Source of the DNA: a virus
Reading direction: 5' to 3' (one strand)
Virus record (IMG/VR): IMGVR_UViG_3300032665_000165
Span: 1-26,662 of that record
DNA length: 26,662 bases
Both the position numbers and the translations under genes were made by a program. The notes under the pieces are model-generated. The model saw only the letters and a list, made by a program, of their open reading frames with translations. It had not been told where the DNA came from and made no database searches. This document shows positions 8,232 to 26,662 of this stretch, piece by piece (positions within the stretch are counted from its first letter, which is position 1; the number at the start of each line of letters is the position of its first letter).

Positions 8232-8654
8232 ATGGCCGATTTGATTAATGACAACGCAGCGATAGACCGCCTGCGAATGTATCACGAAGGGAAACCGCTT
8301 ACGCCGGAATTGGCAGAGATAAAAGAAGGACGGCAGACACAAGAAGCGGCTTCCAAAGTCAGAACAATGCCACATCCGTCCCTTCACGATCCCATGCGTG
8401 AGTTGACCAATACGGAACGCGGGATTTTGCGGGAGTTGAAATTACATCCAGGCTGGGCGGTGCTGCAGAGATTAAAAGAAAAATCATTGCAAATGCACGT
8501 CAGTAATGCTATTAGTAAAAGCCAGATAGACCCATTGGGAGAAGCCGACCAGGTAGTAAAAGCATGGGCCTATGTTACGATGATTCGCAGGGTATACCAT
8601 GAACTTGAAGTGATGATTGAAGTGGAATTGAAAGCACAGGACGAAACATTATGA
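8232..8654 (+). CDS. Small helical phage protein of unknown function
   Basis: A 140-residue, mainly helical charged protein with ribosome site AAGGA at 8222-8226. The best-marked part is LHPGWAVLQRLKEKSLQM, continuing into DPLGEADQVVKAWAYVTMIRR. It ends with a short amphipathic helix and its TGA overlaps the next ATG (ATGA). It lies between portal and scaffold-like genes, where several podoviruses carry a small conserved helical protein. No function is recognised; a head-assembly accessory role would fit its place. Confidence 0.7.
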   Translation: MADLINDNAAIDRLRMYHEGKPLTPELAEIKEGRQTQEAASKVRTMPHPSLHDPMRELTNTERGILRELKLHPGWAVLQRLKEKSLQMHVSNAISKSQIDPLGEADQVVKAWAYVTMIRRVYHELEVMIEVELKAQDETL

Positions 8655-9499
8655 AGTGCGGATATACAGAAACACGAGCGAATGGCCGTCCGGTAGAAGC
8701 CGGATTTCTGTGCTGGAAAATTGATCCAGAAGATGGGACGCACCCCATCTATGTGAATGGCCGCACCGCCGAAGAAATACAGATGAAACTTTCCCTGCAA
8801 AATTTGCACGCGCAGGCCGCGCTTGTAAAACGCAATGCAGTCCCAACGCCGCCGACAAACACGCCGACTGCCGCCGCTCCGATTCCTATCCGCACACAGT
8901 TAACTGCTGACCAAAGATTCCAGGCCACCGCCGATCTAAGCAACCCAGGGAAATCTGCCGCCGCTGTCACGGCGCTTGTGGAAGAACAGACCGGCATCAA
9001 TCTTGAGCAGTTGGCTCAAGAACGATTTGGAAAACTCGCGATGGAATGGGAGGCGGAACATCCCGAATATTATCCGCACCCAGGCAACCGCACGTTGGTT
9101 GGCGATTTGGCTGGCCGACTGGTGGATAGAAAAGTTGGACTGATCACCAAAGAGATTTTGACTTCCGCGTTTCATCAATTGCGGAATCAGGGTTTGCTGT
9201 TTGAGGAGTTGATCCAGCAGCAAGAAACACCAAAAGCAACAGAACCTTCTACATCGTTTCCTGCGGAGACTCAGGTTCAACGTACAGAGGGACAAACGAG
9301 GCGGTTTGCAACTGGAGTACGTGGCAGCACGATACGCCCAGGACAAGGCGCAACCACACGTGGACCAAAGTACACCGAAGCTGATATTCGCAATATGCCC
9401 GAATCAAAGCGACTTGCCCTGTTGGAAGATAAGGGGCAAGCTGGCCGCGATTACGAGGAAGCCTGCGAATATTACTACGGCCAACGCGCAACAGCCTGA
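8651..9499 (+). CDS. Scaffold-like head assembly protein
   Basis: A 282-residue protein between portal and major capsid protein, the usual place of the scaffold. It has an N-terminal segment with FLCWKIDPEDGTHPIYVNGRT, a Pro/Thr/Ala-rich linker at about residues 65-85, a helical middle with LEQLAQERFGKLAMEWEAEH, and a charged C-terminal helix containing KYTEADIRNMPESKRLALLE. Such disordered, helical proteins guide capsid assembly and leave the mature head. The gene overlaps the previous one by ATGA and ends 22 nt before the capsid start. The assignment is mainly positional; it could be another head-assembly factor. Confidence 0.6.
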   Translation: MKCGYTETRANGRPVEAGFLCWKIDPEDGTHPIYVNGRTAEEIQMKLSLQNLHAQAALVKRNAVPTPPTNTPTAAAPIPIRTQLTADQRFQATADLSNPGKSAAAVTALVEEQTGINLEQLAQERFGKLAMEWEAEHPEYYPHPGNRTLVGDLAGRLVDRKVGLITKEILTSAFHQLRNQGLLFEELIQQQETPKATEPSTSFPAETQVQRTEGQTRRFATGVRGSTIRPGQGATTRGPKYTEADIRNMPESKRLALLEDKGQAGRDYEEACEYYYGQRATA

Positions 9500-9505: not shown

Positions 9506-9521
9506 GCGCAGGAGCGAAGCT

Positions 9522-10730
9522 ATGACGAAGCGCACGCAACTGAAAATTTCCCTCGCACTCGCCACCATTCTTGATGCTGTGGTGAGGTTCACACTCAACA
9601 TGCTGCTGCCATTGGCGGCGGCAATCATGGCCGCGTTCATTACCACTGCCCGTTGCTGGGCCGAAGCCTATGCGATGGATTCGCATGGCCTGGTATTGCA
9701 TGATGGAGCCAGCCCAGCGGCGCAGACCAGCGCGAACATGCCGCAGGCGAAGTACACCATTCATTACAACAATGTTTTTATGAAATTTCTGTATCAGCGG
9801 CTAAATAAGTTACTCATGTGTACCCATCAGAACTTGCCGGAAAAGAGCGGCCAGACCATCCGCAACTATATGAATGTGGTGCTGGGCGCGGATAACCAGC
9901 AGCAGACCGAAGGCACACTCGGACCGCCCGAACAGATCTCCACGAACTTCCGCGACATTGTTGTAGGCCAGTGGGCGAACTACAACAACATCAGTGATTT
10001 TGCCTTTATGACTTCCATCAGCAACGATTTGGAAAACAATCGTCGCGTGATGGCGTATCAGTTGGGGCAGACCATTGATGATTTGGTGATGTACATGTTC
10101 GACTATCTGCGCACATACGACACGCGCACAACGAACCAAGACAGCACCAATTCTCCGTATGCGTTCACGAAGAACATCATCGAGCAGATGCCGGCCAGCC
10201 TGGGCGGTGCCAATGTGCCGCCGATGGCAAACGGCTTCTACAACGGCAGTATCCACAATTTCTTTGTGGGTGACATGCAAATCGACAACAGCAACAATTC
10301 TTTGGTGGACGTGTGGAAGCACACCGAAGCCGGACAGTTGAAGTTGGAAGCGCTGACCGATCCAGGCTATGAGGGTGACGCGCCGACGCAAATCCTCAGC
10401 CTGTTTGGATGCCACTGGCGGCAGTCGACGAACCAGACGCAGACGGCCAACTGGCAGGGATCCACTCAGACCGGCATCAGCACTTACCTTGCCGGTATGG
10501 ACGCGGTGATTTTTGTCAACTTCCCGAACAAGCGGCACACGAAGATTGACCCGAAGTGGGAAAACATGAACCTGTGGGCCGGTATGTACACCGAGCGCAC
10601 AGCGTATGACCCGAACGGGCTGATCATCGGTGGCACCGGTTACAACTGTGTGCTGGGTGTTGGATTGCCGCCTGACCCCAACGCCGTCAGCCGCGCGCGT
10701 GTCGCCATCGCGGTGCCGCAGACCACCTAA
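9522..10730 (+). CDS. Major capsid protein (N4-gp56-like) with hydrophobic leader
   Basis: The reading frame is open from 9306, but the ATG at 9522 follows AGGAG (9510-9514) with 7-nt spacing and does not overlap the scaffold gene, so it is chosen; the product is 402 residues. From about residue 70 it resembles HK97-fold capsid proteins of the N4-gp56 type: GQTIRNYMNVVLG, TEGTLGPPEQIST, then NISDFAFMTSISNDLE and QLGQTIDDLVMYMFDYLRT. Residues 1-51 are odd: a basic start, a hydrophobic run at 9-42, and AEAYA just before M52, like a signal peptide ending in Ala-x-Ala. M52 (ATG at 9675) could be the real or processed start, but has no clear ribosome site. A strong terminator follows. Confidence 0.82.
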   Translation: MTKRTQLKISLALATILDAVVRFTLNMLLPLAAAIMAAFITTARCWAEAYAMDSHGLVLHDGASPAAQTSANMPQAKYTIHYNNVFMKFLYQRLNKLLMCTHQNLPEKSGQTIRNYMNVVLGADNQQQTEGTLGPPEQISTNFRDIVVGQWANYNNISDFAFMTSISNDLENNRRVMAYQLGQTIDDLVMYMFDYLRTYDTRTTNQDSTNSPYAFTKNIIEQMPASLGGANVPPMANGFYNGSIHNFFVGDMQIDNSNNSLVDVWKHTEAGQLKLEALTDPGYEGDAPTQILSLFGCHWRQSTNQTQTANWQGSTQTGISTYLAGMDAVIFVNFPNKRHTKIDPKWENMNLWAGMYTERTAYDPNGLIIGGTGYNCVLGVGLPPDPNAVSRARVAIAVPQTT

Positions 10731-10742
10731 CTTGAACCAAAG

Positions 10743-10777
10743 TACCCCGACAGTCCAACCTGTCGGGGTAAGATTTT
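10743..10777 (+). terminator. Rho-independent terminator after the capsid gene
   Basis: TACCCCGACAG (10743-10753) and CTGTCGGGGTA (10760-10770) form a perfect 11-bp stem with a 6-nt loop, followed by AGATTTT. Confidence 0.85.
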
Positions 10778-10796
10778 CAGCAACATGGAGACAGCC

Positions 10797-11537
10797 ATGA
10801 ACAACGAAAAGCCGCAGACCGCCGCTGAAAAGCGCAAAGCTACTTTGGCAAAGAAGAAGGCCGAAGCCGAAGCGCAGAACAATTTTGCAGCACAGACTGG
10901 CGGCATTGGGCGCGTCACGGTGGAAAGTGAGCCGGTGGCGAATTTCACGGAAGAAGAAAAGCGCCAGAGATTGCTGGACATTCAGCTGACTACCGCGATG
11001 CTGAATCAGGACGCGGCGGACGAGGACAACCGGCGACGGAAGAACGAGCGTCATCAGAAGTCCCTGCAGAACGCACAGCGTCAGTCGCAGTTGGAGGCCG
11101 AACGCACGACCAGGCTGCGCGCCGCGCGCGCGTGCAACCACCGGCAGGGCGGCATGATGACGATGGGATTTTCTCCCAGCAAAGGACGAGGCCCGACTGC
11201 ACTGAACCGCATAATCATGCCGGACCACCGACTGATTATGTGCAATGCGGGATGTGGCCTGCGCTTGCAGAGTCCACATCCCTATGACCAAAGCACCGTT
11301 GTACGCAAGGGTGAAACCGTCGAACAGATGCAGGCGCGCGTGGCCAAATATCATCGTGATTTGGAATATTTCGAGGAACTTTGGATGCGCGCGGAAACCG
11401 AGGCCATCACGCCGGAAAGCGCGCAGATTATGGATTGCGGCGTGGAAGTGAAATTTATGGATCGCAACGGCTACGAAGTGTTGGTACGCCGCCAGTGCGA
11501 CGATTATGCGCTTAAGATGTATCCAAGCGTGGCGTAA
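10797..11537 (+). CDS. Coiled-coil and zinc-knuckle protein, function unknown
   Basis: A 246-residue protein. The ATG at 10797 is preferred over 10785 because TGGAG at 10786-10790 gives it a well-spaced ribosome site. Residues 1-112 are highly charged and Ala/Lys/Gln/Arg-rich, probably long helices. Then come C113-x-H115 and, after a 33-residue gap, C149-x3-C153 (MCNAGCG), which could bind one zinc ion. The C-terminal part has a helix with EQMQARVAKYHRDLEYFEEL and a basic end. It lies between the capsid and second decoration-like genes, each followed by its own terminator. I do not recognise the family; a head or packaging accessory role would fit its place. Confidence 0.65.
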   Translation: MNNEKPQTAAEKRKATLAKKKAEAEAQNNFAAQTGGIGRVTVESEPVANFTEEEKRQRLLDIQLTTAMLNQDAADEDNRRRKNERHQKSLQNAQRQSQLEAERTTRLRAARACNHRQGGMMTMGFSPSKGRGPTALNRIIMPDHRLIMCNAGCGLRLQSPHPYDQSTVVRKGETVEQMQARVAKYHRDLEYFEELWMRAETEAITPESAQIMDCGVEVKFMDRNGYEVLVRRQCDDYALKMYPSVA

Positions 11538-11584
11538 GACAACCGTAATACAGCGGTAATACACTTGTAAGCGGGAAGGGTGAC

Positions 11585-12223
11585 ATGGGAGCAGATTACG
11601 TTGTAATGGGACCGCCGACCAGTTCAGGAACGAATCCATCTGCAACGCAGGCGGTTGTCCTGGACAGAACCAATAATTTGCTGGGAGTGTCCGGCGCCAA
11701 CCAAAAATTGAATTGGTGCCGAATCGCGCCGGTTGTGTTGCCTGCACAGACGGCCTTGACCGCCATCACAACAGCACAGACGCTCCTCAGCACCATCTTC
11801 AACGCTGGGATGCTGGCCCTAGTGGGGCGGCGCATCCGAGTGAAAGGCTCCCTGATTTATTCGACCACATCAACCAATGTGGCGACGATTTCACTGTCCT
11901 TGACGCTGGGCGGCGTTACCCTTGCGACGATCACCACGGCAGCGACAAATACGGCCGCCAGCACCAACCTTCCCATCCAGTTCGAGTTTGAATTTACGGT
12001 GGCCAGCGTGGGCGCAAGCGGCACGCTGCAAAGTCATGGCCGCGTGGATGCAAACATCGGCACAACCGCCGCCGCAGCCATCGCAACCTATCTGGATACG
12101 AATACAGCCGTTTCCAGCGCGGTGAACTTGACTGCAGCCTCTACGATGACAGTCACCATCGCCGCCAGTGCCGCCGTACCCAGCGCGCAACTGCTGGACG
12201 CAGTGGTGGAAGTCGTAGCGTAA
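11585..12223 (+). CDS. Jelly-roll-like head decoration or fiber protein
   Basis: A 212-residue Ala/Thr/Ser/Val-rich protein with many short beta strands and almost no Lys. The pattern 'TAQTLLSTIFNAGMLALVGRR' followed by IRVKGSLIYS, then ISLSLTLGGVTLATIT, then FEFEFTVASVGASGTLQSHG, fits a beta-sandwich protein common next to phage capsid genes and usually called a decoration or fiber protein. It has an AAGGG ribosome site just before 11585 and a terminator after it, again suggesting strong expression. Its length equals that of the 3272-3910 protein, with similar composition, though direct sequence similarity by eye is weak. No enzyme motif is present. Confidence 0.62.
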   Translation: MGADYVVMGPPTSSGTNPSATQAVVLDRTNNLLGVSGANQKLNWCRIAPVVLPAQTALTAITTAQTLLSTIFNAGMLALVGRRIRVKGSLIYSTTSTNVATISLSLTLGGVTLATITTAATNTAASTNLPIQFEFEFTVASVGASGTLQSHGRVDANIGTTAAAAIATYLDTNTAVSSAVNLTAASTMTVTIAASAAVPSAQLLDAVVEVVA

Positions 12224-13278: not shown

Positions 13279-13983
13279 ATGGTCACTTTATCCATCTCGG
13301 ACAGCATGACGTATGTTAAGACGTTGATTAAAAATCAGCGTTTTAGCATTGACAACCTGCAGCCAGGTATTACGATGGCAAACATCGTTTTACAAAGGAT
13401 GCTGGGCGCGCCGTTTGTATGGCGAGAAAATCGCGCGAATATATCACAAGCCATAACTACAACGGGCGGCACAGATTACGTTGTCGTCATCAGCAATCTT
13501 GGCCGCATTGAAACCCAATGGCTGACGGATGCGAACCAAAACAGCATCGCGCTTGAAGGCGCAGTGAGTCTGCCAAAAGTCAGCACAACGCGCAGACCCT
13601 TGAAGGTTGCACCTGTCTATGACGACAATAAAGGCAACATCACATTGCGTTTTGATGCCATACCAGACCAGAATTACACGGCATATTTTGACTACCAAAA
13701 GAAAGCTCCATTGCTGACCAGCTATGCAGCCACATTCGAGCCGGTGTCGGATGAATTTGGTTATTTGTTCAACACAGGAATGTTAGCGTTAGGGGCATTG
13801 ATTACGAATGATGCGCGCTTCAACATTTGGCAGGCCGAGTTTGTTGCAGGCATACTAGCAACGCAAGATGGATTGGATGCGCAATCGAAATCCCTATTCT
13901 ATGACCAGATGCTAAACGCCGGACGTACCGCGCTGCGAAGCCAGCAGATGGGAAAAAATGCGATGCAAGGACAGTTGAGATAA
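13279..13983 (+). CDS. Second head-tail adaptor-like protein
   Basis: A 234-residue protein following the previous gene by 2 nt. It starts with helices (SMTYVKTLIKNQRFSIDNLQ, then NIVLQRMLGAPFVWRENR), has a beta middle with YVVVISNLGRIETQWL, and ends with helices including EFGYLFNTGMLALGALITND. This helix-beta-helix plan matches tail adaptor proteins of podoviruses (T7 gp11 type) and loosely the first and last parts of its upstream neighbour. In the T7 order the adaptor precedes the nozzle gene, as here. Either it or its neighbour, or both in stacked rings, may be the true adaptor. Confidence 0.62.
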   Translation: MVTLSISDSMTYVKTLIKNQRFSIDNLQPGITMANIVLQRMLGAPFVWRENRANISQAITTTGGTDYVVVISNLGRIETQWLTDANQNSIALEGAVSLPKVSTTRRPLKVAPVYDDNKGNITLRFDAIPDQNYTAYFDYQKKAPLLTSYAATFEPVSDEFGYLFNTGMLALGALITNDARFNIWQAEFVAGILATQDGLDAQSKSLFYDQMLNAGRTALRSQQMGKNAMQGQLR

Positions 13984-13987
13984 CAGC

Positions 13988-16900
13988 ATGGCAGATGCAA
14001 TCACAGCAGCGGGAGCCGTAAAAGGCCAATCGCGGTATGCCGCTCTTAACATGGGCGGTGAACAATTCACCGGCCTGTGGACTGCGGGACAGCGCAGCGC
14101 CTATCGTGATGCTGCCACGCCCTACATACAGAAAAAATTTTATCAGGCAAATCGGTTTGATTCCATCATTGACGGCATCAACCGAGAAATTTCGCAGCGC
14201 CTAACTACCCGCCGCCGCCCAGGATCGAGCATCTACAACTCGAACATATTTCCAGCCGCGAACAGCATGAAAAACTGGAAATATATTCAGAACAACGCAG
14301 AAGTGGTGCGGGTGATTTATGACGGCGTGGATGGAAACATCTACGATGCCACCGCAGGACAAAAAAGTACTTTGTTCAGCAAAAGTGCAGGCGCATCAGC
14401 AGCGCGATTTTTAGGAGTGAACACGGAATTATTTTTTACCGATGGAGTCGAGAACAAAAAAATTGTCCAGTCTGCGTTCATATGGGGAGCAGATGAATAC
14501 TTTGAACAAGGAACCTTCATTGTAGACAGCAACAAAAACCTGCAGGTTGCGTGGGGAGGAATCACTGTAAATATCTCCAGTGTGCAAGTGACGAGCAATG
14601 TATTGACGCTGACACTTGACCCCAATGATCCAAATTTGCCGGACAATCTATTGTTTCTTGTGGGAATGAAATTGACCGCCAGCGGATTGACGAGTGCGAC
14701 ATTTCTCAATTCGCAAACCTTTACGATTGCCAGCGTCGTACAGGGAAACCCTGAAACCAGCAGCCATATTTTAACGGCATCCTTCACCCATGCGAATTAC
14801 GGGCCGGCACCGGACACAGGCAGCGTAACCAGCGGAACAGGCATTAGCGGAAGCACAGCGCCATCGTGGGGCAGCGGCAAAGGTACATGGACGTATGGCG
14901 ACGGCGGCCAGCAATGGTTGTGCGGCGGCAGCAATATACAGAATTGGGGTTCTGCAGCACCAACGACGGCCCCGAGCGTTAGTTTTGCCACAAAGCCAAA
15001 TCCATACAATGCGTGGGCCGCAAATACCTACTATGGCGTAGCTCAATATCCTGTGGTGTTGGACAACAACGGTATACAGGCATGTACGACAGCAGGTGCG
15101 ATCAGTGGAGGCACTCCCACATTCTCAGGAACACTCGGAGGCACGACGACATGGGGAACTGCAGTATTCACAAATGTAGGAACCGGCAACTGGACAGCAG
15201 CGACATTATTTAATACCGGAACGTATGCCACGAATCCAGTAGGGATTTACAACTATTTGTATGTGTGCATCCAAAGCGGAGTCAGCGGAGCATCCCAAGC
15301 CATATGGCTTACTTCAACTGGAGCGATTGTTTACGACAATGATGCAGTATGGCTCTGTCTTGGAATTGCAGTCGGGTCGATTGCCACAGTAGGCTCTCCA
15401 ACTGTTGAAACAACGGGGTACATCGTAGACAGCAACGGTTATTTGCAGGCCGCACAAGTGATGGCCGGACTCACGGGAGCCACAGAACCAACATGGTCAG
15501 AAATTGTAGGCAATACAACATCCGACACTGCAAGTTCAGACAACCAAAGCTGGCTGAACAGTGGAAACTTTGAAGCAGGCGGCACAGCACCAGCCACCTA
15601 TGCCTATTCGTTCGCAAGCAGCATCACAGGTTTTGTCAGCACGTCCAGCCCAGCCAGCACACCGAGGACACTGCCACCGGATGCAAAAATCATCGTGCAG
15701 GGATTTGGCAGCACCGATACGCAGATTGACACGATTTATATTTGGGCGACGACACAGGGCGGCAGCACACTATTGTTTCTCGATAAAATTCCCGCTCCAT
15801 CTGCGGGAGCAAGTGGCACATGGAGCTACATAAGAGTTCAGCCCATCGGAGTCAACGAAGATTCCGACTTGAACGCATTTATTGCTGCGCCGATTGATGA
15901 TGCAAATGACCCACCGCAGATTGGCATGACAGCACCGACATATTATTTGCAGCGAGTATGGGCCATCGTTGAAAACAAGGTTGTGTGGAGTGGTGGACCG
16001 GATACGTTAGTTGGAAGCGGCGATGAATCTTTCCCGCCGTTGAACTTCATACCTTTCATTGCACAGCCGATTTGCACTAGTCCTATTACCGTTCAAAATG
16101 GCGGTTTGTTAGTTTTTACGACAGATGGCAGTTACATCATTCTCGGAACCGGCACATCCACCAACCCGTTCTATGCCACACCGTACTACAGCAGCGTGAG
16201 TATCAGTGGATACAACGCAGTGGCCGTGTACAACAACACAGTTTTCTTGATGGAATCAAACGGCATGGTTTCGAGTATCGCCGCAGAATATCCTTTCAAC
16301 CCGCAGAGTGGCTACACGGAAGTTGGTTTCCCTGTTGGCGATCAATTCCTAAATGTTAACACTGGAGGAATTAACACCGCGCTCTACAACCCAGCTACAG
16401 CGTACCTCAGTTGGAACCGAGCCAACACGCAAGATTGGGGAATGTATGTGGCGGACGGTGCGGTAGGATGGTTCAAAATGTCTGTGATTTCACCGCCTGA
16501 ATCTGGATTGGTGTGGAGTACCAGGGCGGCGATTTATGGCGGCACAAGCGCTGTACAAGATGTGGAAGTGGCGGCAGGCGAACATAGATTGCTGATTGCT
16601 CCGGCAGTGGGAACCACAGGGCCGATTCTGCAGCGCGACACGACAGGAACCGTATGGGGCGACTGGAGCGCAACCAATAATGCCTATGAACCGTATCCAT
16701 CATGGGACGCGAAGGGCGTGAACCTTTTGTGCGCCACAGGACAGTGGGCAGAAGTATCACACATCAGCACAAAGAGTGTAGCGGTAGGAGCGCGGCCAAC
16801 CATCAGCATTTTGCTGAATGAAATTGAGCCATCCACTGACCGGCCATATTTGAAGATGCAAGTGGACGACATGCAGAACGATCCGGCAATTACGCTGCCA

Positions 16901-24055: not shown

Positions 24056-24622
24056 ATGAGTCTAACACCACAAATCACGCTGACCGCAACCCTGCAAGAT
24101 ATTTGCGGAAATGAGGCAGGCAGTGTCAGCAATCCTGCTCGCCTGCGGATTGTTTTGTGTGGCTATGGCTTGACGTTGCCGGTTATCGTCGGCACCTCAT
24201 CGCTGGCGCAAATTGAATATGAAATCGCTTCAACAGGCTCCCCAATTTCGATCAGTCTATGGGGCCAAGATGATATCTCGCCCAGCGGGACCTTTTATCA
24301 AATCACCATTCTTGACGGAAACGGCAGAACATTACAATGCGGAGCCTATCAATTTTTCGGAACACAAACGATTGATTTGAGCAACGCAACACAGATCGTT
24401 CCCAGCGGAAGTACGCCATCAGGACTTGGCAGTTTAGAGTTGGCAGTTTGTAACGGAACCAAACCAGGCACAGTTTTTACAGCGTCAGGAATTGTTGTAT
24501 GTGTCTTTGTGAATGGTCTGCTGCAACGCCCGACAATTGATTATACTGTGTCAGGAACCACCATCACTTTCAATTACACCGTTGGAGGAAGTTCAAATGT
24601 CTATGCGCTCTGCATTGTCTAA
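24056..24622 (+). CDS. Short fiber / tail-tip beta protein
   Basis: A 188-residue beta-rich protein with GAGG before its ATG. It starts MSLTPQITLTATLQDICG and has LRIVLCGYGLTLPVIVGTSS, then GTFYQITILDGNGRTLQCGAY and TIDLSN, a pattern common in phage fiber or tail-knob proteins. The end (VFVNGLLQRPTIDYTVSGTTITF) matches the small 'FVNG..q...DY..sGt.itf' domain of many tail fibers. It probably joins the long fiber encoded next, or forms a short fiber itself. It overlaps the next gene by 26 nt. Confidence 0.7.
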   Translation: MSLTPQITLTATLQDICGNEAGSVSNPARLRIVLCGYGLTLPVIVGTSSLAQIEYEIASTGSPISISLWGQDDISPSGTFYQITILDGNGRTLQCGAYQFFGTQTIDLSNATQIVPSGSTPSGLGSLELAVCNGTKPGTVFTASGIVVCVFVNGLLQRPTIDYTVSGTTITFNYTVGGSSNVYALCIV

Positions 24623-26662
24623 AGTCGCAGTCGTACTGCTTTTACTGACGTGCTATGCACATGCGCAGCAACAGATTGATCCATCGCAAAACATTGCATG
24701 GCCAGCATGTACTGGCACGCAACAGGTGTACAGCATCACGTTGAACCAATGCATCACGCCACAATCCGCGGCTGGAGCAGTCGTAGAAAGCCCTGTTATC
24801 ACACAGACAGTAGCACAGCCGAGCGGGACAAACTTCAATGTAACCACGAGCTATGGCGGCAAGGAAGAATACAATGGCAGTGAAGTATGTTCTGCTGTAA
24901 ATGGACTGTGCCTAGTACCAATCACTGCTGGAACTGAAAACATAGGTTCCACTACAAATTGGTTCAAAAATTTGTTTATTGGTTATGGTGCAAGTTATTA
25001 TACAGAAATTAGTGGCTATAATTCACAAACAGGAAACGTAACTTATACTATGCCCCCTGTTGCTACCGGCAGTGATACATTGGTTTCAATTGCTGCTTCA
25101 CAAACGCTTACAAATAAGAGCATTGCTGGTAGTGAAATCAACAGCAGCACTATTGGCACTACTTATGGTGGCACAGGTCAAAACTGGGGATCAAGCTCTG
25201 GTATTCCTGAATTGAACGCTGGAACATTTGGTTTATATAATACTTCATGTTCAAGTGCAACCAATGCGCTAACTTGGAATAACTCAACAGAAGCATTTGG
25301 ATGCAATACTATTTCATCTGGCACTGGTACAGTAACAGACGGAAGTGGTGTAACAACTGCCGGATACATTCCAGTATCAACTACCTCTGCTCACGTATTG
25401 TCTTATACACCAACCAGCACATACAACCTTAGTGTGCCAACTCTAAGTGCTAATGATACTGTTGATACCCTTGGTGCAGCACAAACATTTACTGGTGCTA
25501 AAACATTTAGCACAACAGCACCTATATTCTCAGTTGGCCTAGTATCAAACACTGCTGGAACTGGTAATATTGGATCAACTTCAAAGTGGTTCAATAACTT
25601 ATTTTTTGCCGCTGGTGCAAGTTACTATACTGAAATTAGTGGCTATAATTCACAAACAGGAAACGTAACTTATACTATGCCCCCTGTTGCTACCGGCAGT
25701 GATACATTGGTTTCAATTGCTGCTTCACAAACGCTTACAAATAAGAGCATTGCTGGTAGTGAAATCAACAGCAGTACGGTTGGGTCTGGATATGGCGGCA
25801 CAGGACAGGCATGGGGATCAAGCTCTGGTATTCCTGAATTGAACGCTGGAACATTTAGTTTATATAATACTTCATGTTCAGGTGCAACCAATGCGCTAAC
25901 TTGGAACAGTTCAACTGAAAGTTTTAGCTGCAACACTATTAGCAGCACAACACCTGGTGGCAGTTCAGGAGCCGTTCAATACAACAACTCTGGCTCATTT
26001 GGTGGATTGAGTACAATCGGTTCCAATAATGTTTCAACAGTAACATTGGCACAAAATTGCACACCGTGTATTGGCGGATTGAATATCAACATTACTCCAG
26101 GTGTTAGTGGCACAGCTACAGCAGAACCAGCTTATCTAAATTTTGGTTCATATTGGGTACAGCAAACACAAGACCCAGTATCAGCAAATCCTTCAACATT
26201 TCAAATACTTGACAAGAACAGTGTGCCAAGATTTTATGCTGGTGCAGCTTCATCAACTGCTTTAGGTTTTACCAGCATTGATGCTGATGGCAGTGGAAAC
26301 AGTGTGAATGTAAATGACCAATCTGGTGCTGGCACTGGTGGGTTGTCTATTTATTCAGGCGGTGGTAGCCCTACAGTATGGGCAACTATTAGCAGTTCAC
26401 TTGCTGCGTCAAGTGGATACACTTGTTTGCAAGCTAATACTTCCGGCGTTCTTAGTGCTGTTGGAAGTGCTTGTGGTACTGTAACTGATGGCAGTGGCGT
26501 GACTACCGCGGGAATCATCCCCGTTTCAACCACTACGGCGCACACCCTCAGCTATACACCAACCAGCACATACAACCTTAGTGTGCCAACTCTAAGTGCT
26601 AATGATACTGTTGCTACCCTTGGTGCAGCACAAACATTTACTGGTGCTAAAACATTTGGTGC
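24597..26662 (+). CDS. Long tail fiber, partial, with signal-peptide-like leader
   Basis: A reading frame of at least 688 codons runs off the right end. GGAGG at 24584-24588 lies 8 nt before its ATG, fixing the start inside the previous gene. Residues 1-23 look like a signal peptide: basic start, hydrophobic VAVVLLLLTC, then AHA before QQQ. The rest is Gly/Ser/Thr/Asn-rich fiber sequence with phage-fiber motifs such as SQTLTNKSI, YGGTGQ and AAQTFTGAKTF. A unit of 209 residues repeats (first copy from 24915, second from 25542). It probably binds the host surface; a C-terminal chaperone or receptor domain would lie beyond the window. The repeats are more AT-rich than neighbouring genes. Confidence 0.82.
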   Translation, partial: MSMRSALSKVAVVLLLLTCYAHAQQQIDPSQNIAWPACTGTQQVYSITLNQCITPQSAAGAVVESPVITQTVAQPSGTNFNVTTSYGGKEEYNGSEVCSAVNGLCLVPITAGTENIGSTTNWFKNLFIGYGASYYTEISGYNSQTGNVTYTMPPVATGSDTLVSIAASQTLTNKSIAGSEINSSTIGTTYGGTGQNWGSSSGIPELNAGTFGLYNTSCSSATNALTWNNSTEAFGCNTISSGTGTVTDGSGVTTAGYIPVSTTSAHVLSYTPTSTYNLSVPTLSANDTVDTLGAAQTFTGAKTFSTTAPIFSVGLVSNTAGTGNIGSTSKWFNNLFFAAGASYYTEISGYNSQTGNVTYTMPPVATGSDTLVSIAASQTLTNKSIAGSEINSSTVGSGYGGTGQAWGSSSGIPELNAGTFSLYNTSCSGATNALTWNSSTESFSCNTISSTTPGGSSGAVQYNNSGSFGGLSTIGSNNVSTVTLAQNCTPCIGGLNINITPGVSGTATAEPAYLNFGSYWVQQTQDPVSANPSTFQILDKNSVPRFYAGAASSTALGFTSIDADGSGNSVNVNDQSGAGTGGLSIYSGGGSPTVWATISSSLAASSGYTCLQANTSGVLSAVGSACGTVTDGSGVTTAGIIPVSTTTAHTLSYTPTSTYNLSVPTLSANDTVATLGAAQTFTGAKTFG
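24915..26168 (+). repeat. In-frame 627-bp repeat units in the fiber gene
   Basis: Unit 1 is 24915-25541; unit 2 starts at 25542. The best-kept part is an exact 143-bp match, 25005-25147 against 25632-25774; another match, 25185-25229 against 25812-25856, has the same 627-bp offset. The second unit diverges after about 25940. The repeats are direct and in frame (209 codons). Confidence 0.88.
25404..25508 (+). repeat. Second fiber repeat, copy 1
   Basis: These 105 bp recur at 26553-26657 with a single mismatch (GTTGATACC against GTTGCTACC). The offset is 1149 bp, again a multiple of three. The encoded stretch includes TSTYNLSVPTLSANDTV and AAQTFTGAKTF. Confidence 0.88.
26553..26657 (+). repeat. 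Second fiber repeat, copy 2
   Basis: Copy of 25404-25508 with one mismatch. It is preceded by a more diverged copy of the GTVTDGSGVTTAG segment (from 26475, against 25326) at the same 1149-bp offset. Confidence 0.88.

Follow-up and report, generated by a model that had tools for sequence, protein, structure and literature searches.

The major capsid protein (MCP) encoded in the window, by which we mean the whole 26,662-base IMG/VR record IMGVR_UViG_3300032665_000165 of an uncultivated tailed phage, begins with a long hydrophobic leader that, judged against the genes of its relatives, is best read as translated protein. We show, from comparison of these sequences, that the leader fits a single origin, was kept in every relative found and is grafted exactly before the N-terminus of leaderless homologues. 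We infer, with confidence evenly balanced for and against, that it serves as a membrane-associating or hydrophobic assembly prosequence at the N-terminus of the MCP and is probably cleaved.

Window and sequences compared

IMG/VR was scanned with the MCP (34 loci), with an MCP profile (41 loci) and with a terminase profile (48 loci), the three sets of loci overlapping. The main comparison set consists of 40 MCPs, that of the window and 39 others from across the clade, which are not fully independent of each other; MCPs of the clade are 32-73% identical to the window's. Membrane-like and signal-like character was assessed by hydropathy (best 19-residue Kyte-Doolittle value, KD19, with a cut-off of at least 1.5) and by a hand-made rule, and a Shine-Dalgarno (SD) sequence at the leader start was scored when it comprised at least 4 nt. 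Genome contigs searched with the MCP and with the terminase for a host or provirus yielded no relatives, and a plasmid search found none.

The capsid gene and its predicted fold

The MCP gene lies on the plus strand at 9522-10730, its frame open from the ATG at 9522 to the stop at 10730, and the SD sequence AGGAG, read directly at 9510-9514 on the same strand, precedes the ATG with a spacing of 7 nt. The leader (9522-9704, plus strand, residues 1-61) extends up to a conserved D-G and combines a basic start (MTKRTQLK), a long, predicted hydrophobic helix with a best KD19 of 1.90, and an Ala-rich end. The first-pass annotation had described a 51-residue version of it (9522-9674), MTKRTQLKISLALATILDAVVRFTLNMLLPLAAAIMAAFITTARCWAEAYA, followed by M52 with its codon at 9675; the AGGAG and its 7-nt spacing, the 51 extra residues, the basic start, the hydrophobic run and the A-Y-A ahead of M52 (A49-Y50-A51, 9666-9674) are all correct in coordinates and sequence. 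A 645-codon open frame with a GTG start also runs antisense on the minus strand at 9810-11747, spanning the MCP and the next gene, and is probably compositional.

Behind the leader, the HK97-fold core (9705-10730, plus strand) starts from G62; phrog_1357, the alignment, AF2 and Foldseek are the evidence for it. The profile match to phrog_1357 'major head protein' is weak (E=1.9e-5), with no Pfam match at E 1e-3, and by sequence no entry of the PDB is matched significantly (best E 0.26). With 60 diverse homologues, AF2 predicts an HK97 fold behind one long helix at a mean pLDDT of 71.8; with 20 close relatives the core reaches a pLDDT of only 35. The top Foldseek matches of the model are the capsids of Pan3, Moo19, GP4, Pam1 and N4, at E values of 1e-12 to 1e-9 (best 4.6e-12), and one BFVD match is named N4-gp56 family. 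On the strength of this model, the ORF at 9522-10730 is one that encodes an HK97-fold major capsid protein.

Evidence for translation of the leader

The leader frame upstream of the core is free of stops in 40/40 MCPs, as against 1/40 and 23/40 for the other forward frames, and it reaches a KD19 of at least 1.5 in every case, which the other forward frames do in 0/40. An SD stands before the leader start in 39 of the 40 genes, and in the relatives this start falls directly downstream of the end of the preceding gene. Of the loci from the terminase scan, 47 yielded an MCP, and in every one of these a hydrophobic N-terminal extension is present ahead of the core, even where the MCP is 32-50% identical to the window's. 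Most changes in the leader occur at third positions and pN is below pS; the median pN/pS is 0.69 for the leader and 0.30 for the core, values that are indicative only, many pairs being near saturation at synonymous differences, and that point to relaxed purifying selection on the leader, with a constraint weaker than that on the core. Because the frame is open and hydrophobic, with an SD, an upstream start and pN below pS, we read the leader as protein, and both a mis-called start and an RNA element are disfavoured.

Among the explanations offered in the first-pass annotation was a wrong start, and relatives that begin at M52 and have nothing conserved upstream were named there as what would refute a leader. 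The comparison of starts shows otherwise, as the leader is kept in the relatives together with its SD and its upstream start codon, whereas an ATG at M52 is missing from most of them. Such a reading, in which translation begins at the core or nearby and chance alone keeps the upstream frame open, could appeal to the ATG at 9675 in the window and to 3/40 genes in which a start codon in frame close to the junction is preceded by an SD-like sequence, but an ATG occurs at the tested M52-equivalent position in 7/40 only. Together with the 40 open hydrophobic frames and the 39 SD sequences, this leads us to reject initiation at M52 or the core, and chance openness of the upstream frame, set against the other frames and against pN below pS, deserves hardly any credence.

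Anatomy of the leader and its junction

AF2 models the leader as a single helix, residues 3-56, with a pLDDT of ~80-89 over most of its length. Across the clade the leader is about 50-80 residues long (51-61 in the window, depending on the end point chosen) and contains a charge-free stretch of 21-45 residues, with a median of 34. Lys and Arg together average 3.95 before the helix and 0.33 after it in the 40 MCPs; helical structure, membrane affinity and a positive-inside charge bias are predicted features of the leader. As read from the alignment by eye, the commonest form has an N-terminal part that reads M-[KT]-x-x-TQ-x-[KR]-[IL]-S-x-x-[LV]-V-[RK]-x-[VIL]-[LF]-W-P-x-[VL]-Q-L-[IL]-AA-x-GGA-[IL]-[AV]-VT, and a C-terminal part with an Ala-rich stretch and then [Q/A]-A-x-[A/G/C]-x-x-[F/L]-x-D-G-x-SP. 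One subclade (L007, L024-L028, L030-L033) carries an extra, very basic and Trp-rich segment of the YRMWKRKKQWVSGT type ahead of the hydrophobic helix; it makes up the first ~30 residues of the MCP and is conserved within the group.

The A-Y-A before M52, which the first-pass annotation had pointed out, is not conserved. The conserved element lies slightly downstream, at S54-H55-G56 in the window (9681-9689, plus strand), where most relatives have A-x-A/G/C, and is a candidate processing site or helix end. With positions counted back from the D in D-G, all of the 40 MCPs have A or S at -7, and a small-x-small pattern at -7/-5 occurs in 31/40, as compared with 12.4 +/- 2.8 in shuffles. A test of the leader for helix-face periodicity (Ala zipper or small residues) was not significant (p 0.73).

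Distribution and origin

In a maximum-likelihood tree based on the core only, all 40 leader-bearing MCPs fall on one side of one branch (98/97), which corresponds to one change and no loss among the 40, in a tree where some end branches, including those of the outgroups, are long and the root stands on weak ground. The nearest isolated relative is Tunturi_3 (PP885686), a Tunturiibacter podovirus from the Acidobacteriota (PMC11924767), which makes this phylum a tentative candidate for the hosts of the leader clade. Its portal and terminase are homologous to those of the window and its major head protein is a relative by sequence (32% identity), but the latter starts at the core and has no leader, with a stop codon a few codons upstream. 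The Tunturi_3-type clade is without a leader in all members read whose match reaches the N-terminus, and no hydrophobic leader is present in Paenibacillus phage API480 or in five human-gut phage contigs. The leaderless sister MCPs begin at the alignment column where the core of the leader-bearing MCPs begins.

Gene neighbourhood

Genes upstream of the MCP match families of terminase large subunits and of head-tail adaptors, the adaptor-type gene being homologous to the annotated portal of Tunturi_3, and the order terminase, portal, scaffold-position gene and MCP is conserved across the relatives. The scaffold-position gene (8651-9499, plus strand) encodes 282 aa, ends 22 nt before the leader start and has homologues in 45 related loci. 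Its product matches no Pfam or PHROGs family and gave no significant BLASTP similarity to Tunturi_3 gp4; from its position we consider it a putative scaffold. With Pfam and PHROGs, none of the late genes was recognised as encoding a prohead protease, which means little because such families are very divergent.

Beside the late module, at 271-2235 on the minus strand of the window, are genes for a plasmid RepA_C protein (E 5.5e-10) and a ParA-type ATPase, with ParA homologues (56%) in two relatives; since these genes adjoin a phage late module, they suggest a phage-plasmid lifestyle. In one related record, IMGVR_UViG_3300010376_000035 (68,976 b; loci L022/L023), the same genes are mirrored in both halves, an inverted duplicate that is probably an assembly artefact.

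Comparison with signal peptides

The likeness to a signal peptide drawn in the first-pass annotation holds in part. The leader shares with Sec/signal peptidase I signal peptides a basic n-region, a hydrophobic h-region and a small-x-small junction, but differs from them in the length of its hydrophobic stretch, in the lack of conservation of AYA/M52 and in an atypical +1 residue. The h-region of Sec peptides is short (about 7-15 residues), and both the charge-free stretch of the leader and its predicted helix exceed it. The residue directly after the MCP junction is Pro in 12/40 and Gln in 1/40, although other cleavage registers are possible. According to works cited in PMC2638155, signal peptidase I is hindered by a Pro at +1. 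Gln at +1 is a feature of exported proteins of Bacteroidetes and of scattered other groups (PMC5837995), and it therefore does not fix the host.

In the same genomes, the late module ends with fibre-type genes whose products do begin with classical Sec signal peptides; these serve as an internal control, and the MCP leader is longer than they are. In the window, such a gene (24597-26660) encodes a protein with the start MSMRSALSKVAVVLLLLTCYAHA/QQQIDPS and a predicted cut before Q; long near-identical direct repeats were seen by eye within this gene, at ~25000-25160 and ~25610-25790. Fibre-type ORFs with signal peptides are also found in the relatives G002, G003, G004, G005, G007, G008 and G010-G016, commonly with Gln at +1 and often with A/QQ and then a motif of the type x-[IV]-[DN]-P-x-x-x-I-x-W-P. 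Large signal-peptide-bearing ORFs are present in 13/15 genomes with the leader and in 2/4 without it (Tunturi_3-type G017 and G018). We considered a tie between the MCP leader and the fibre signal peptides and do not claim one; because similar peptides occur in the two leaderless genomes, the fibre signal peptides are, on the sequences compared, a peculiarity of their own that extends more widely among these phages. Directly downstream of the MCP, the head modules of G001 (13637-14092, L078) and G014 (13746-14195 and 14165-14746, L240) also encode small proteins whose starts resemble signal peptides.

A true Sec signal peptide would send the MCP to the periplasm, to be cut by signal peptidase I. 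The n-region, h-region, small-x-small motif and positive-inside bias, and the textbook signal peptides on the fibre-type genes, speak for this, but the window's terminase and portal are without such an N-terminal run, packaging is cytoplasmic and the MCP is expected in the cytoplasm. Moreover, Pro directly follows the conserved A-x-A in the 12 MCPs noted above, and Gln is nearly absent from the MCP junction, in contrast to most fibre signal peptides. Hence, although the leader resembles a signal peptide, it is probably not one of the ordinary kind, and export of the MCP by this route appears very unlikely.

Possible roles of the leader

The MCP would, as we propose, be translated from 9522 as a precursor in which the leader forms one long hydrophobic helix. 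This helix might dock new coat protein on the host inner membrane from the cytoplasmic side, or it might draw the N-termini within each capsomer together as a hydrophobic bundle in the prohead interior. At about the time of maturation, a cut would probably be made at the small-x-small junction, and the mature coat protein would then begin where leaderless MCPs begin. The end of the leader coincides with the start of leaderless homologues, as expected of an extension before a mature N-terminus, and in HK97-fold proheads the N-terminus faces inward, where MCP prosequences sit. A prosequence and a membrane anchor, both put forward alongside the wrong start, are still viable where the latter falls, and may be one and the same thing. 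A simple N-in spanning helix that obeys the positive-inside rule would leave the capsid core on the far side of the membrane, outside the cytoplasm where packaging takes place, so that normal packaging requires a peripheral, hairpin or intra-prohead arrangement of the leader. As a separate scaffold-position gene lies upstream, a scaffold role of the leader may be redundant. It is doubtful that the coat protein is integral or lipid-anchored in the membrane during assembly, with HK97-type shells built on or around the host membrane. If true, the prohead of these tailed phages would be membrane-templated and might contain lipid; we know of no HK97-fold virus that assembles in this way.

Alternatively, the leader may stay on the mature coat protein as an internal helix that lines the capsid interior or bundles at capsomers and makes no contact with a membrane. 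The continuity of the AF2 helix through residues 3-56 is consistent with this, sequence-specific conservation, for example V[RK]-[FY]-[IV]-L-W-P-L-x-Q-L-x-AA, is suggestive of packing contacts, and the basic N-terminus could face packaged DNA. However, a charge-free, strongly hydrophobic stretch of this length would be unusual in hundreds of copies in an aqueous lumen, the helix-face periodicity is not significant, and an uncleaved helix needs no fixed small-x-small junction; we regard it as unlikely. A leader freed in the head and ejected with the DNA, which it would help to cross the host membrane, is also compatible with a hydrophobic helix and a possible cleavage junction, and capsid-derived membrane-active peptides exist in some animal viruses. 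Nothing in the data favours ejection over assembly, and we know of no phage precedent for a membrane-active capsid leader peptide in infection; this role we consider highly improbable. The assembly prosequence remains the reading that we prefer, and a membrane, or a hydrophobic handle for assembly that can be removed, would then probably take part in the building of these shells.

Comparison with known capsid systems

Few protein families in virology are as well studied as the HK97-fold coat proteins, which are treated as soluble and cytoplasmic. A clade-wide, membrane-like helix on such a protein, apparently gained once and with no loss found, provides a natural experiment on prohead initiation and maturation. 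Whether membranes take part in the assembly of proheads, a long-standing question, becomes testable by comparing leader-bearing phages with their leaderless sisters. It is also a warning for annotation, as gene callers that clip starts, or filters for secretion signals, would hide or misfile such MCPs.

Keyword searches of the open-access literature found no description of a tailed-phage MCP with a hydrophobic or signal-like leader. The window's MCP resembles the N4-gp56/GP4/Pam1/Pan3-type MCPs in its HK97 fold, as predicted by AF2 and Foldseek, and in its head gene order, but it differs from them in having no significant sequence match to a solved structure and in its leader. Those relatives without a leader that were examined begin with the core and, to our knowledge, no capsid protein of this type carries a hydrophobic leader. 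The T4 gp23 propeptide and the HK97 delta domain are charged and are cut by a known prohead protease. Like them, the leader is an N-terminal extension before the mature MCP, of broadly similar length and predicted to be helical; unlike them, it goes with no recognised protease and is hydrophobic in the manner of a membrane helix.
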